From assembly GCF_964204645.1 (NCBI RefSeq), contig NC_134026.1:3720001-3784000 (forward strand): 64,000 nucleotides of DNA. Direction: 5' to 3'. How positions within the stretch are numbered: position 1 is the first letter of the stretch; the number at the start of each line of letters is the position of its first letter. The DNA comes from Tubulanus polymorphus. Lineage: Eukaryota > Nemertea > Palaeonemertea > Tubulaniformes > Tubulanidae. Shown piece by piece: positions 9,167 to 60,287 of the stretch. A model generated the notes under the pieces. That model searched no databases. It was not told the DNA's origin and worked only from the letters and a program-made list of their open reading frames with translations. A program made the position numbers and the translations under genes.

Positions 9167-15630
<6,464 letters not shown>

Positions 15631-18302: not shown

Positions 18303-21300
18303 ATGAGTGCTGACGTTAAAATGAGCGGCGGTAAGAAAAAAGGAGGCGGATTTCTGTCTCGACAAGCGAAAGCCAGAAACAATAGCACATCGAGCAGCAC
18401 CAGTAACAAAGACACGATTACTGAGGAAGAACTTTTAACTAAAGAGTCGATAACGCCGAATGATATATTGAAATTGAATAAAATTACTGACAGTGAGTAT
18501 GACTATGATTATTAATTTGATTGATTTTTGTTTTTCATATTTTCATTTTCACAGGCCGGGGCTTTTTCAATTAGCTTCTGCCATAGGCCTATTTGTTCCT
18601 CCGCTCCTGGCTCTACTCCCTGCAAGTTAATATAGGTTAACCCCACAATTGGCTGGCCTTCCACTGTCTGTGATCAAACAATAGAATGGACCTGGTGTAA
18701 AACCATGAGTCAGGATCAAAGACTCATTTTTCCACTCCTCACTCATCCTACACACACTTATTGACTCCATGAGTTTGATATTAATTTCAGTAATTTTGGA
18801 GTCTAGACCTGATTTGACTCCCTTTAAGCTTTTCAAATTCTCAAGCGTAACATTTTCACTCAATTAAGCCCCGGTTCCTAGTTCAACAAATGTCAATCAT
18901 CTTAACTGTAATTTAACGATAACCACACTCAAACGTGGTGAACGGATAATAAGATAAAATCCCACTATTTACAGATTAAAAGAATTTAAAAACCAGAATT
19001 TATTTATTCAATCAAAAATAATCTATTTTATTCACACCTGACGATGATCTCTAGGGTGAGATCGAAACGTCGTGTCTTTTATATATTTTTCATTGAATAA
19101 ATAAATTCTGGTTTTTAAATTCTTTTAATCTGTAAATAGTGGGATTTTATCTTATTAACTTTAATTTGTTCATTTTCGGTTAGGCCCTAGTGCTATTTAA
19201 CTTCATAAGCCAAGAGAGTCAGATTTTAAACAAATCAATAACTGCTGTAAACTGATCCTATAATCATTATCAATCTATTACTTATCATTACAGCATATTT
19301 ATGTCCGTTGGAGGCCAATATTTTTGATATCGACTTCACACGATTCAAGCTTAGAGATATGGAAACATCAACAGTATTGTTTGAAGTAGCAAAGCCTTCA
19401 AGTCCAGGTACGGTATGGGATCTAAAGTCAGTCATCCACCTTCTGTTCTTGAAAGCGCATAATTCAGAGCCCACTTCAGCAGTATTTGACCATCTGTAGA
19501 CGCTATTTAAGCCAATTTTCTGCTGTTTGTTTCTCTTTCAATTTGCCATTTTCAACTTTAGGCTAAACAAAAATGATACCTTGTTTCTCCGCAGCGGCCG
19601 GGTCATTTTTGTAAAATATGATAAAATTTGTAAACAGTTCATTTCTATAGCGGCCGGGTCTGTAATGGTAAAATTGATCACGATTTTAAAAAAAGTAATG
19701 TATAGGGTAGATAGGCGGCCGGCCGGGTCAACATTCAAGCTCAGCAGAGCGGAGAAACAAGGTATCAATTTTTTTTAGCCTTACGGTCAAAGCTTCGTTC
19801 TGTGGAAGTGTATCTGGGTTATTTTATCTCAGTGTATGAGGTGTTAGATTTAGATTTTCAGCATCATGTTTTAGGCTTGATTTATCGTGTTACATAGGCC
19901 CTAATATAATATTATAATCTAACCAATCACAATCTCAAGGGTAATATCTAAAAGTTCTCGTCCTTATCCGCGAAGGTCAGTTTTGTTTGTTTGAATTACG
20001 TGTTCTGTTGGCCATACCAGTAGTTCGTATACATTTACACAACAGGTCTCAAACTAGGATTAGTGGCCCTGTATGAAGGTAGTAATCAATTAGCTCACTG
20101 GTCAGTGCTCTGTTGATAGAATAAAGATTAGTTCCCTCATTAACGGTTTGGCCAATCCTAGACTAAGTCACCATTCCCTTCGAGATTATGAGTTTTTTTA
20201 ATGAACCGAACCCTTGTTAGCCTTGTTGAATTCTGATGAGTCCACGAGTGGTTATATTCCTATATAGTGACTTTAGTTTCAATTTTCGAACAGAACTTCA
20301 ATCGTAAGTTGAATACGCGGAAAATGCATCTAATGCGCAATGAATTTTAACTATTTAGAGAGTCGGATAGATGATTCGCGTGTGGGGTTGATTTAATGCG
20401 AGTAGCCAGGATGAACACCGGCAAATTAAGAAATTTCCCTCGGGGGCTGAATTCAGTTGCTTTTATTAAACCCGGATCAATTGTTACGCGAATATATTAA
20501 TATAAAAAGGGGTCATGTGGGTCAGGTGGCCTTAATGGGATGTTTAGTGGAAACGTGAACCTGATTGTTGTCAGCGATAGCTTCTCAGTCTCTGACTTAC
20601 TTAGGCCGATGTTTTGCCGTATACCATGAACAATTATTGATATCTGGGAATGTATTATCGATAATCATAGCAGACCGAATCAATAGTTCTCGGTTCATTT
20701 ACTTATCTACTTCGTATGAATGATATGTATTTGAAGCAAATATGTATGTTCTGGTACAAATAGATCGGGCAAAGCGCATCATCCGTCCCTTATAATTTTA
20801 GGATCATTATTTCAAGCTTTTTTTTATCGCAAAACCCATATATTTCTGAGTAGAACCTCATTAAAATTAAGCTCAAGTGGTCCCCTGGAGAAAAAATGGA
20901 TACCTCGTAGTTATAACCAATAATTTTTCGAGAGCTATCCAGTAGAGAATCGTTAAAACTTTCCATTCGGACCATAAATGAAAATTGGGGTCGAAATATC
21001 CGATAAAACAATGTGGATATAACAAGTACATCATGTATGTGTCGTCTATTCATGTCATTTAATGTATATGTATGATGTATGGATAAGACAGAAGACAGCT
21101 AGATTCTCACGCTGATCAGAAATCAATATCAAAATTTTACCAAAAACCGTCTGGTCATCACACGAAATGACTTATTATCAGCGTACCCTGTTTATTTATC
21201 TAGTTACTATGGTAACCACTTAACCGTGTAAAATGATATAGTCTCTCGATGCATGGTTACGTAGTGAATATGGTGATGGAATTGAACTTCTCGGTGATGA

Positions 21301-24300
21301 CTTTAATTAGCAGAAATTAATGATAATTAATCATCATGGGTATTATCTAACTATGATGTAATACGTATGACTCGGGCTATTGGGTGCATTGATGTAAGAT
21401 GATCGGTTATATTTATCGCGGAACCGGTTTAGGGAACCGGAAATATTTTCATACTGGCTACTTACCTCTAGTACTGGCTACTTACCTCTTACCGTTGATC
21501 TTTTTTCAGTTACAACTGCTCCTGATTTTCAGTATTTGTTACTATTTTATGACTAGACTGATTTGATTGGTTTGATGTGTACGAAAATAGGAAATATTCC
21601 TCGATAGAATGGCATTGAGCAACAAGATAAAATCCCACTATTTAGAGATTAAAAGAATTTAAAAACCAGAATTTATTTATTAAATCTAAAATATTTAAAA
21701 GACACGACGTTTCGATCTCACCCTAGAGATCATCGTCAGGTGTCTGAGATCGAAACGTCGTGTCTTTTAAATATTTTAGATTTAATAAATAAATTCTGGT
21801 TTTTAAATTCTTTTAATCTCTAAATAGTGGGATTTTATCTTATTATCCGTTCACCACGTTTGAGTGTGGTCTCCGTTCTGGCATTGAGCAACGTTTATAT
21901 CATATCTCTGGGTTCTGTTACAGACAAAGTTTCCTTTGAATGTACATCAGAAAGATGTTTATGGCGTATTTACTAATTGAGAATCACGAAGCAGTAATTA
22001 ACGAGCATTATCAATACGATTGATCATGTAGCATTATAAATATGTTTATGAAAATGAGCTGTTTGTAGTTTGCATATTGTACGTATAGGACATTTAGTAG
22101 TCATGATGTTGGGAATGATTTCTATAACCAGCCACATTGAAAATACATGCGTCAATAGAAACAAGAATTAGTGCCTTGTCATTTTTTTCCCATTTGGGAT
22201 TGAACGCGGCGAAAAAACAGTTCGCGCTTAATTTCATTAAGGTATAACAACAGTTACAGGCTGATACTTTGTCTCGTTTTTCGCGGATTAGTCGCTATGG
22301 ACGCGTTTTGGCATAATTTATTCCCAGATTCACGTATTGGTTTTTGTTAGAAGCATATATACAGGGATATATATACAGGGTTTTATATAGGTTTTCGTAG
22401 AAAACCTTATAAGCTTTTTAAATAGAAAACCAGTTTGTGAATAAATGCAAATTCTTGTCAACTGCCTTTTATTCTCTCCTGTTGCACACACATTTTGCCA
22501 AAAGTAGATAGGAGCTTAGAATGACTTCTAAATCCGATGAATCGGACGGACCATATCTTTTTCAACGGGCACCTCATCGTAAAGTCACTGCGACTACTTG
22601 GCCTTACCGAATTGTTCATTTAATTTTTCTTGTTACAGAGAGGGAAGTGGTGGCTGATATCGACGTGGAAGATGTTGACCCCAATGCCGGACGTTTCGTT
22701 CGTTATCAATTCACCTCACAATTTCTCAAGCTCAAGACGGTCGGAGCAACGTACGTAAACCCTTACCGCAATACGAATGATATCATCAGTTTATCAGTCC
22801 AGATACAAATTCGGTTGGTGAAATAGAGTATCAATACCAGTACTTTTTGAAAACGTAAATTGATTGGAGCGAGTTGTTATTAAATCACTAAATAAACTCA
22901 AAGAAGAGATGATACCTGTGGGGTGAATAAGATCTCTTGCCTGAAGGAAGGTGGTTTGAAATAAAGTAATGATTCTGTATGAAAACAAAATAGGGTTTCA
23001 AAAAAGGTTTTTCCTTGGCAATTTTCATGTTATTGAAAAAGCAAGAAAAGGAGAAGAAAATCTAGCGATCAATATATTTTTCTGTTGTGAGACGGCTGAT
23101 GGAAGTATATTCCAGTTTTAGAATCTACTGAGCAGTAAATATCCATTAATCGCCTTATCCGACTTAAAACTCATCGACTGATGCTTAACATACCGGGTAT
23201 ATACATGTATCAATATATACGGATAGTTCACTTGTTGGAATTCTGAAACTAAACAGAGTACTCGGCTTATCTTAGGAATATCAGGGGTCATTAGATAATA
23301 ATTACTGGTACAATGTATCTTGACTAGAAAAATTGCTAATGGAGCAGTTATTCATTATATCCCTGGCCAGCTTGTACATGTATCTAGTATATACCAAGAG
23401 TTACCAACCATCAGCGATTTTCGGGGGAGGGAGTTGTCCCCAATAGTGCTGTCCGTGATGGTGATTTTTACGGTATTGAATATGATTCAGTTGTCTTGCG
23501 TCCCGATATAAAGAGCTTAACTTCTCATTTGCCTATGTCCCCGAAAGTTTCTTCGGCCAGACTTTGTTCAGATATTTACAATAAGGCAGCTCTGATACGT
23601 GTTAAACAATGGATATTCGTAAATTCTGGTATATACGAAGGGTTGCAGATAATTTCATGCGCGACGATTTGTTTCTTCTTGCAGGGTGGAATTCACGATC
23701 GGTGACAAACCGGTGAACAAGTTCCGTATGATCGAACGTCATTATTTCCGTGATAAACTGCTGAAAACGTTTGATTTCGAGTTCGGTTTCTGCATTCCCA
23801 ACAGTAAGAACACTGTCGAACACATATACGAGTTTCCTCAATTAACACCAGATGAAAGTAAGTATTAATACATCTGATTCACAAGTTTAATCATTTTATC
23901 ACCTTATTACCAACCTCTCACATGTTCCCTCATTGTGTGTAGCCAGTCTGCTCGGTGCTACTTTTTTGACACCTTGATTTGTGCTTACTTTTCATAAAAA
24001 TGTCAGTATGTGCTGAAAAGAGCTAGTTTTTCACTTAAAGTCATCTGAAAAGATTTTGTCTCAGCATTCGTAATTGTTATACTAAGTTATGGGCAATTAA
24101 CATGAGTGCATGAATGACATGAGTTATTTTTCTATAGGTAATTGTTTGACAGTTACGTTGTTTATCACGGGTACAATTCATTAAAAGAGTGCTACTTTTT
24201 CCTCACGAAAAGTACTAACTTAAGCCTTACAGCTACAGATCATCTTACCCAAGTACCTTTAAATTTTAGAAGATTATTTTACATGAACCAGAACTGAAAT

Positions 24301-30272: not shown

Positions 30273-33200
30273 TTAGAATGGGTTGGGTGGCGGTGGTTTA
30301 AGTTCATCTTCCATTGATGACAGCCAACTGTCTCCATTTATCAATTTAGTCGTAGCTATGATGTAATCAGTGGGACCTGTAGAACAAAACACATTGGATT
30401 AGATGAGTATTATCTGCTTACTTTGACGAATCAACTTCTTAACAAACGAGAAATCATTTGATCAACACAATTGAATACCACTATTAAAACGAGTAGTACT
30501 TACTATCATCACTCTGAGCAAGAAATCTTAAAGCAGCGAGTTCAGCATACGTGATGCCACCCAGGAATACAACCAATGTAGTCTTCTGTTCAGTATTGGA
30601 ATGTGTCGAGGAAATTGAGCTTTCTAATAATAGATGGAAAAAATGTGTGATTAAACCGATCATTAACAAACTACGATGACAGCGAAATTGCCGCAGTATT
30701 GAAGTTTAACATGTGGACTGGAAGAAATTGTCCAAAAACTGTAATAGGCGTTTAGTGCCAATCCTGTCTTAAAGATGCGTTAACATGCAGAGATCCTCCA
30801 GATCCCACATTAAGGGTTCTCCCCACACACAAGATATGCCATTTTTCCCAATGTCTGACCAACGGAAAAATGAAGGATATGTCACTAAATGAAAGAAGGT
30901 CTCCGCTTACTTCTCTTCCGTAAACCAACAGGAATTTGTTGCACTTCTTCGAATCGTGGTCCAGGCAGCAGATTAAGTAACTCCGTGATACTTCTCCAAC
31001 CAGGTCGGGCTAAGTACTGAATCAGCCTCACACTTACCGGGGCATATCCACTGTACACGTAGGATATATCATTCGGATTCTGCAACATAAATAGAATACA
31101 TTTCAGCACAAGGTACAGATATTACTGAAGCACGAAATATTTACAATGATGGAATTTCTACCTGCTCTTGTACTTCCTCGACTAATAGTTTCAATGTTTT
31201 TCTCACGGCTGGGAATATAGGTTTTGACTGAACGTGCAAGAGTCCAGCTTTCTCGAGATTTTGTAGCGTAATTACATGCTTAAACCCGTATGTCTTAAAA
31301 GAGATTTATTTAACCATCAACGTATTTTGATTATAACTGAGAGAAACCTGATATATTTCAACGATTCTTTGTATTCTTTTCCACTTTCTTACCTGTAAAA
31401 TCTCTCTTTTGTAATGTTCTAAAACTTTTTGCTTCAGACCTGTATTGCATGCACATTGTATACATATCAATCGTAATACCTACGGACATACAGAATAAAC
31501 ATTCACAATACACAGGATTAAACTACTACAATTCACAGCACTACGCAGCGAACACCCTTACCTTGAAAATTGGCTCTTTCCTTGCAATACAATCTTCTAC
31601 ATACGGATTGACCTTGTCAGCTTCTACACCATTTATGAACTCTAAAATAGATACCAATTTCCATTATCACCTTACAATACTGACATATTACTATCAAATC
31701 AGACTGATTGCATCAAGAACAGATATGTTGCAGTAGAGTTATGTACCCTGTTGAGTTCTGAGACAATCCAGAAATTGATCAGAGTCTGTTACTTCTTTGA
31801 TTAATTCAGCAATTGATGTATCTGGAAAGGAGAATTCAACAAAAGATGCAATAGGAGGTCTGAGATGCAATGGCAAAATCCAAATAATTTGGTTTTTAAA
31901 TATTTTCCGTTTAAAGTAAGTTAATCGTCTGGACTACTTACGTGTGCCAAGAGACTGTTTTGCAGCAGTCATATGAGGCAGTTTCGTTACGAAATCTCTC
32001 AATTCTCCAACAGTTTTAGCCGAATGTCGCTCCTAAGCAGAAAACCATCTCATCAAAAAAGTTTATATCAAAATAATAGAGAAGTAACGGACAACGCTAG
32101 ACTTACATCAGCTAAAGCAGAAATCAGCTTAGCTTTTTTACTTAGAGCTGGTCCAACAGCATTAAAGTTCTTATCCCTGATTTCTGCGTACAACTCTTCA
32201 CCGGAATTCAATATAATTTTCTTGAACTCCTCTTTTTTTGCTCCGTCTTCGATGGCCTTTGTAAATTTCTCGGGAGGAAATTTAGCAGTAGCTTCAAAGA
32301 TAAATTTACATTGTATGAATGGTACAAAAAGGGACAACATAATATCGAATTTGACCAAGTGGCTGAACCAAGGTGGCTGAGCAATTGAACCATTTGACCA
32401 AGACCAGGTCGACCAGGTGGGTTGAGCAACACTAAGATGGACGAGAACAGGACCTCGACAGATCGGTTATTCCTGGATATATGGAGTTGTAGGAACCCTG
32501 AAGAACATTGATCAGGCTCTGACTGAGAAAGGACCTGATCCATGAATAACCATCACAGATAACTTAACTTACTGTTATGAATGCCGAAGATTTCATCGAT
32601 CAAACCTTCATAGGTAAGTTGTGAAAGTAAAGGCGTTAAAGGGTCAACCATACGATCTAATAAAACTAGGTTATCGATCTGCGGTGTTATTTGCATCTCA
32701 TTACCAGCCATTTCCCTTCTCATTCTCAATATCATATCACAAACATGCTACAATATTAACAAAAAACACCTATGTAAAATTCATTCAATGCCTTGCCCTA
32801 TAAAACAATTCCAGTACAAGGAAGTAAACACTATACAAACCTTTGCACAATCACCTTTTCCGTAGATATTTGGTATCACTCCGTACAGAGCTTGAATAGT
32901 CATGATAGATTTTGCCATATGAAATAAACTAGTGTAATCTTTGTAGAGGTAGCATTCCTATAAAACATTCCAAATTCAATGAACATGAATGAAAATTACC
33001 AGGAGAACAAAATGATTATTTACTACCAGAAGTGACTGTAGTTACTTACGCGAAATGATGTTTCATTTTCCATTGACAACAGGTCGTAATCAAAAGGAAT
33101 CAAATCCAGACAGAAATCTTCTTTGATATTTAAATAACTGTAAACATTCAAGTCCTAAAAATGTAATCAGAGGAATACTTTTTCACCAAAAAATGAATAG

Positions 33201-58928: not shown

Positions 58929-60287
58929 ATGAGTGATCCACGCTCGCGAAAATCAAACGCTGTTCAAAGGCTGCGGCAGCAACTACGCAAGAAAAGGGAA
59001 TCGTTAGCCGACCAGTTTGACTACAAGATGTACACTATATTTCACTTTAAAGATAAGGTACTATTTGGGAACAAAATATGAGATAGGTGCAGTTGACTCG
59101 ACCTATATATATTCAGAACAATATTTTCTCAGAGTGTTTTTTCTTAATTCGCAGAAAAAATCTCCGGCGGTGTTCGAAATGGCCGAAGTGGTGAATGTGA
59201 TGACCAATAACTATGAGGATACGATATTGAAAGGAGTGAAAGAAGAAGCGTACTCGTATGAAAGCTCCGTCGAACTGCTACAGAAAGATGTAGTTCAACT
59301 TCATGCCCATAGGTGGCATCCAATGAGAAAGGTAAAATGATAAGCGAATATGCATCAAGAATCGGTATCTTGGCTTCTCGGATTCAGAGTCAAATCTCTT
59401 GAAGTTTCTTTACAATTACTACTGTAAATGTGTCTTGTTTATGTTGTTCAGGATGTTATTGGATGTACATCTACGATCGACTTTTTTCTTTGGCCTCGCG
59501 GTGATATCGATCACGTTGAATGTCTTCTATTTTCACGCTGGAAAGGCGAATCGGAAGAACCTTTCAGGCGGCTGCAGGTATTTTGTTTACATTTTAAGTT
59601 ATCGAATATTCTAGTTGGATGGACGCCAAAATGTACTCGTTCGAAAAAAAGGTTGGGACCACAATGGATTACAGCGTATAACAATTGCCACCTCTGATTA
59701 TTGTATTTGACAAAATGACAAATCTAACCCCATCAGATGTTTAGAAATGAAAGGTACTTTGATATTAAAGATACTTTTTTTTGTTGACAGGTTGTATTTG
59801 AATTCCACTCCGATGATTACGAAAAGCAAATTATACGTTTGTTGACTCAAAAAGAGAAATCGGGTCTCATAATTAACAACGTGCTACAGTCAATTTTCTT
59901 CTTCATGGAAAGGTGTACTATGAAGGTCAGTTCAAGGTTGCTCTACTGGTCTATATTTCATCAGAAGATATAATTTTTAAACTGATTATGCTTTAACCTT
60001 TGATACATATTTATTTTAGACATCAAAAAACACAGCTGTTGTATTCAAACTGACAAGTATCTGTCTCTATTTACCTCAGGTAAGATTCAGACGAAAGCTC
60101 TTCGTCGCAATACGATATATTAAGTTAGAACTAATCTCGCTGGCCTTTAATAATTCTTTTCAATTGTATGACATTATTATTATTATTATCATTATTATTA
60201 TTTCATAAAGATACTGTATTTTTCTAGGACCAGTTGACATTATGGGGCCCATCGACTATGGAGGACGAGATGGCAGCTTATGTCTAA
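58929..60287 (+). CDS. C6orf62: C6orf62 homologue, conserved protein of unknown function, 6 exons, 228 aa
   Basis: Exons: 58929-59057, 59155-59331, 59452-59577, 59791-59925, 60020-60079, 60228-60287; every intron is phase 0 and GT-AG, 229 codons with stop. The protein starts [20 protein letters not shown], with a basic amphipathic helix and [16 protein letters not shown]. It continues with [72 protein letters not shown], and [17 protein letters not shown] near the C-terminus. It aligns over its full length with human C6orf62 (229 aa), a metazoan family with no assigned enzymatic domain. No signal peptide or membrane segment is visible. Its function cannot be inferred from sequence. The uniform phase-0 introns are notable. 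Confidence 0.96.
60172..60203. repeat. (ATT)n microsatellite in C6orf62 intron 5
   Basis: About ten ATT units with one ATC interruption, 25 bases before the last exon. Confidence 0.9.

Follow-up and report, generated by a model that had tools for sequence, protein, structure and literature searches.

The window, the 64,000-nucleotide stretch of Tubulanus polymorphus DNA analysed here, contains exons of host genes, including those of a PHF12-like PHD finger protein (9489-11231) and a DUF4566 protein (59008-59340), as well as a weak Sec1-family match, under the Pfam cut-off, that we read as a host gene exon (32068-32466, minus strand). It also carries a 240-bp palindromic insertion flanked by a 13-bp target duplication, features evident by direct reading and anticipated in the original prediction; the two copies of the duplication, TTAACTGTAATTT and TTAACTTTAATTT, are identical at 12 of 13 positions (Table 1). 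RNA of this stretch is predicted to fold at -117.2 kcal/mol, against a mean of -38.1 kcal/mol for shuffled sequences (z = -19.7). Two features had been overlooked. The 32 nt at the left end lie outside the palindrome and have no right-hand counterpart, and some 2.5 kb away, on the minus strand of the same window, a second copy of the element has its own target duplication and both of the kinds of end described below.

Table 1. Features of the palindromic insertion and of its second copy in the window
Feature	Position	Strand	Basis or remark
Left target-duplication copy, TTAACTGTAATTT	18902-18914	.	Direct reading; recovered by the automatic search (L081)
Whole insertion, probable PLE stub, two arms head to head	18915-19154	+	Orientation is that of the ribozyme strand
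Left arm: truncated inverted leader copy, from start site 2 to a stop short of the ribozyme	18915-19020	-	BLAST of arms against a natural copy (L001)
PLE "tail", 32 nt from start site 1 to start site 2	18915-18946	-	Matches PLE tail/AC-rich stem-loop of PMC11167929 and PMC3846280
Tail stem ACCAC (18922-18926) / GTGGT (18935-18939)	within 18915-18946	-	
Centre junction, 13 nt of filler between arms	19021-19033	.	BLAST of arms (L001, gap 13)
Right arm: full-length copy of the leader, beginning at the presumed transcription start (ACAC), spanning the ribozyme and ending at start site 1	19034-19154	+	
Helix I, 5' strand, ACAC	19034-19037	+	
Hammerhead core C3-A9, CTGACGA	19038-19044	+	
Extra U between A9 and helix II	19045	+	Present in 56 of 56 distinct cores
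Helix II, GATCTC/GAGATC, loop TAGGGT	19046-19063	+	
GAAA-CG-U16.1-C17	19064-19071	+	Cleavage predicted after C 19071
Helix I, 3' strand, GTGT	19072-19075	+	
Right target-duplication copy, TTAACTTTAATTT	19155-19167	.	Direct reading
Second two-armed copy, family A (L071), target duplication TTGCTCAATGCCA	21621-21870	-	

A hammerhead-type core and its genomic copies

Read directly, the centre of the element (19034-19075) is ACAC-CTGACGA-T-GATCTC-TAGGGT-GAGATC-GAAA-CGTC-GTGT, with a perfect 6-bp helix II and a helix III consisting of AC/GU alone, without a loop. This is letter for letter the arrangement proposed originally, including the additional U that precedes helix II. With only the best candidates scored, the element as a whole has at least 40 distinct matches across its own 268-Mb genome; most of these carry their own target duplication, so that neither the element nor its duplication is due to chance. 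A loose core pattern, CTGANGA-N12-30-CGAAACGT, has 3,813 occurrences genome-wide, compared with 12 for a reversed control. Among the matches listed, the motifs belong mainly to a handful of families, designated A (that of the window element), B, C and D, together with a relative of D, which have the core in common and differ in their helices.

These differences provide evidence that the core is a genuine one of hammerhead type. In ten distinct cores drawn from across the families, the three pairs of helix I and six pairs of helix II are formed in 96.7% of cells, 26 of which are compensatory double changes (7.2 when shuffled), while sliding the partner strand as a control cuts the pairing to 26-53%. 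Because the search pattern fixed only the core letters and a single base of helix II, the remaining pairs constitute a fair test of covariation. The invariant residues CUGANGA...GAAA...UH are present, partly by construction, as the pattern demanded CTGANGA and GAAACGT; conservation of the core across genomic copies is nevertheless clear, for it is kept in 27 of 40 copies chosen by DNA similarity instead of by pattern. Nothing in the pattern required the extra U, yet it follows A9 in every one of the 56 distinct cores. Neither this residue nor the reduced helix III, both originally regarded as departures, is therefore peculiar to the window copy, the loss of helix III being the published state of PLE (Penelope-like element) hammerheads (PMC6155905, PMC7761336).

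Searches of Rfam at gathering and permissive thresholds (to E 10) matched no hammerhead family, and the best score of RF00163 over the whole genome (22.4 bits, against a cut-off of 34) fell at none of these motifs. MicroRNA matches, all scoring under their gathering thresholds, were dismissed as artefacts of the palindrome. This outcome weakens the case for a canonical hammerhead, not that for a minimal hammerhead of PLE type. In predicted folds of the monomer from families A, B and D, an extended hairpin is favoured over the hammerhead by 2-6 kcal/mol, in agreement with the PLE hammerhead of Anolis, which shows no cleavage in the absence of PLE protein (PMC11167929). By its sequence the core is a minimal hammerhead of the PLE type, for which self-cleavage is a prediction.

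Ends and joints of the insertions

Target duplications of the copies have a median length of 13 bp and range from about 10 to 17 bp; long, variable duplications of this sort fit retrotransposition, as had been argued at the outset. The copies consist of single arms or of arms placed head to head, and head-to-tail tandem repeats of 150-450 bp are not the arrangement. All 13 close pairs of motifs on opposite strands, among the matches listed, are head to head, and pseudo-LTRs occur in both direct and inverted orientation.

When arms were measured against natural copies, their outer ends fell at two fixed points. Site 1 follows TGTGGGATT...TTATTA or an equivalent sequence, and site 2 lies about 36 nt beyond it, on the far side of an AC-rich stem-loop. 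The resulting tail of 32-38 nt, with its stem-loop, is found at one end in four families. Every one of the 58 two-armed insertions whose target duplication measures 9 bp or more combines one end at site 1 with the other at site 2. Were each end chosen independently at one half, the probability of this outcome would be 3.5e-18, and the frequency of same-site pairs has an upper 95% bound of about 5%. Pairs assembled automatically conform in 68 of 71 instances, and the three exceptions were explained on inspection: one is a spurious weak pair (L108), another has a tail that carries an internal deletion (L110), and the third, whose true ends are site 1 and site 2, had been paired at an inner end (L142). 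The 40 copies drawn by similarity to the window element may favour that element's arrangement of ends; in a sample drawn by pattern, without this bias, 26 of 26 conform across all four families, L108 and L110 being set aside. A long two-armed copy of family D, an autonomous family, has the same pair of ends and the target duplication GATTCGTGAC. We found no paper that states the rule in so strict a form, several key PLE papers lying outside our coverage, so its novelty is unproven.

In contrast to the fixed outer ends, the joints at the centre vary. They are distinct in 63 of the 71 automatic pairs, and those of family A comprise 25 overlaps (microhomology), 8 blunt joints and 18 with filler. 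The two arms of one copy nonetheless agree at 6.26 of 7 sites diagnostic of subfamily, compared with 3.57 when shuffled, and none of 20,000 shuffles attained the observed level; sharing a haplotype, both arms appear to copy RNA of one source. In three family-B copies (L082, L083 and L085) the helix II hairpin is repeated in tandem, fold-back fashion, within the centre, a pattern reminiscent of a growing cDNA priming on itself at helix II.

Both self-priming and target priming have been proposed for PLE integration. In the former, put forward in 2013 for rotifer Penelope elements (PMC3846280), the hairpin that is inserted arises when a cDNA or antisense RNA folds back and serves as its own template. 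Such a route would produce head-to-head palindromes, and the helix II fold-back repeats of L083 and L085 resemble local self-priming. Copying of one arm from the other, however, predicts like start sites at both ends, whereas the ends differ in 58 of 58 insertions, and the arms meet at microhomologies or filler that vary from copy to copy. We consider self-priming improbable as the origin of the palindromes, and the unlike ends lead us to favour two-sided, target-primed copying over it. Two-sided copying would not be obligatory, since some copies have a single arm.

The shorter arms end in loop II in 19 of 51 cases, many of them at microhomology, and just before helix II in 12. Only 2 of 51 end at the cleavage point, and the idea that arm ends are traces of ribozyme cleavage finds no support here. 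In the pattern-drawn sample the longer arm is the one with site 1 in 15 copies and the one with site 2 in 6 (p = 0.08, not significant); the corresponding 33 to 2 of the similarity-drawn sample is a ratio biased by the query. As the longer arm crosses the cleavage site to reach the presumed transcript start, the inserted copies were made from uncleaved RNA, in agreement with the finding in vitro that unprocessed RNA is the main substrate.

These observations bear directly on the first half of the original interpretation, "retrozyme-like or Penelope-derived". An animal retrozyme, a non-autonomous element spreading as hammerhead-cleaved circular RNA, would likewise be small and AT-rich, with a hammerhead core and target duplications longer than 4 bp (PMC7229834). 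Known animal retrozymes, however, form tandem arrays with a repeat length of about 150-450 bp, and their hammerheads are canonical and make tertiary loop contacts (PMC7229834), whereas the copies described here bear a minimal ribozyme and are independent single or head-to-head insertions with PLE tails and largely distinct junctions. Their arms cross the cleavage site and seldom end at it. A retrozyme is accordingly a very improbable source, and the retrozyme-like half of the interpretation is abandoned; the Penelope-derived half is upheld by the coding sequences described next.

Association with Penelope-like elements and a proposed route of insertion

The GIY-YIG endonuclease end of a PLE ORF (FGETGRDL...NNGFSPHNSLLSK, stop; also given as CDKIYFGETGRDLKTRISEHKKD...NNGFSPHNSLLSKYITSCLVKH, stop) lies directly upstream of a family-A leader at locus L108, the order being GIY-YIG stop, TATA-like stretch, and leader with a ribozyme identical to that of the window element. 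In families C and D, ORFs that measure 817-841 codons from stop to stop encode both RVT_1 and GIY-YIG Pfam domains and are situated between direct copies of a leader bearing the same type of ribozyme. The coding evidence for family A is the 3' end at L108 alone, the complete ORFs coming from families C and D. In these two families the ATG of the ORF (MLPTDR...) lies 1-3 nt downstream of site 2, so that the tail ends at the start codon (L143, L142). We considered whether the extra U might form part of the start codon of an overlapping ORF, as in the Poseidon PLE of Anolis carolinensis (PAc), and ruled this out for families C and D, where the ATG within the leader opens just 5-6 codons and the Met of the ORF sits just past site 2; the leader frame is short in family A as well.

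Two loci show coding sequence in other settings. L142 comprises two long, near-identical arms, head to head, each with a complete family-D PLE ORF; its ends at site 1 and site 2 and its 10-bp target duplication give it the same insertion form at full length. L144 represents another PLE lineage, in which an 820-aa RT and GIY-YIG ORF is repeated in tandem at a spacing of about 5.5 kb, with a 656-aa ORF upstream and no ribozyme of this type nearby.

The adjacency at L108 and the ORFs of families C and D make a leader-only stub of a GIY-YIG PLE the best reading of the window element. Judged from these comparisons, it is very probably a two-armed insertion of the 5' leader alone of a GIY-YIG (Penelope/Poseidon-like) PLE, made by the two-sided priming proposed below. 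A palindromic DNA transposon (MITE or foldback) with a centre resembling a hammerhead by chance would explain the long inverted arms and the direct target repeat, but it is already refuted by the unlike ends and the PLE coding sequence adjoining the same leader, and duplications of about 10-17 bp, a centre joint that varies among copies and a core that covaries across families also speak against it.

The sequences themselves establish the two-armed structure, the rule of the two start sites, the variability of the joints and the association with PLEs; we infer from them an order of events and the enzyme responsible. Transcription of the PLE would begin just upstream of the hammerhead, a start suggested by full-length arms that begin there, downstream of the TATA-like stretch present in longer copies. 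The PLE enzyme would then cut both target strands, with a stagger that yields a duplication of roughly 13 bp. Within the leader, one 3' end of the target would prime cDNA synthesis at site 1 and its counterpart at site 2, beyond the AC-rich stem-loop, and both cDNAs would copy toward the 5' end of the RNA. Finally, head-to-head joining of the two cDNAs, often at microhomology, would produce a palindrome whose tail is asymmetric. A PLE studied in vitro does cut and extend both strands, and it initiates at two sites, one on either side of the tail (PMC11167929); sites 1 and 2 correspond, in our reading, to these two starts of reverse transcription in Anolis.

A broader proposition, on which we remain evenly divided, is that every two-armed PLE insertion is a coupled reaction that pairs site 1 with site 2 on one RNA source, possibly one RNA held in an asymmetric PLE dimer, with same-site pairs forbidden, not merely rare. 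The ribozyme would then act outside templating, for example, and speculatively, by removing the capped leader and so diverting the RNA from translation.

The element itself is ordinary in kind, a PLE leader stub, and the end rule is the useful part of this analysis. The thousands of short insertions in the genome record the integration reaction, and the rule obtained from a sample of them sharply constrains any model of it. We suggest that 5' stubs of PLE transcripts may account for many of the "dispersed minimal hammerheads" of animal genomes.

Comparison with known systems

According to reviews, PLEs typically carry minimal hammerheads lacking helix III, thousands of which lie dispersed in animal genomes (PMC6155905, PMC7761336), and the kind of ribozyme described here is thus already known. 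Like the hammerheads of PLEs and Terminons, it is of type I, lacks helix III, and occurs both in PLE pseudo-LTRs and in thousands of dispersed motifs; it differs from them, as reviewed in these sources, in the extra U after A9 of every distinct core. With the animal non-LTR retrozymes (PMC7229834) the copies share small size, AT-richness and a type I hammerhead, but retrozymes comprise tandem repeats and give rise to circular RNAs, in contrast to the single or head-to-head PLE stubs found here. In the rotifer Adineta vaga the tail of Penelope elements was called optional and self-priming was proposed (PMC3846280), whereas exactly one tail is present here in each of the 58 two-armed, duplication-flanked copies, a regularity that two-sided priming fits better.

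The closest parallels are with PAc (PMC11167929), in which a hammerhead with stems I and II likewise lies near the start of the ORF, two starts of reverse transcription bound a tail of 30-40 nt with an AC-rich stem-loop, and both strands of AT-rich targets are cut and extended. The start region of PAc, however, is reported to lie inside the ORF (111-118 bp in), whereas the ATG of families C and D follows site 2 by 1-3 nt. No strand preference of PAc was seen in vitro, whereas the genomic two-armed copies described here combine both sites.
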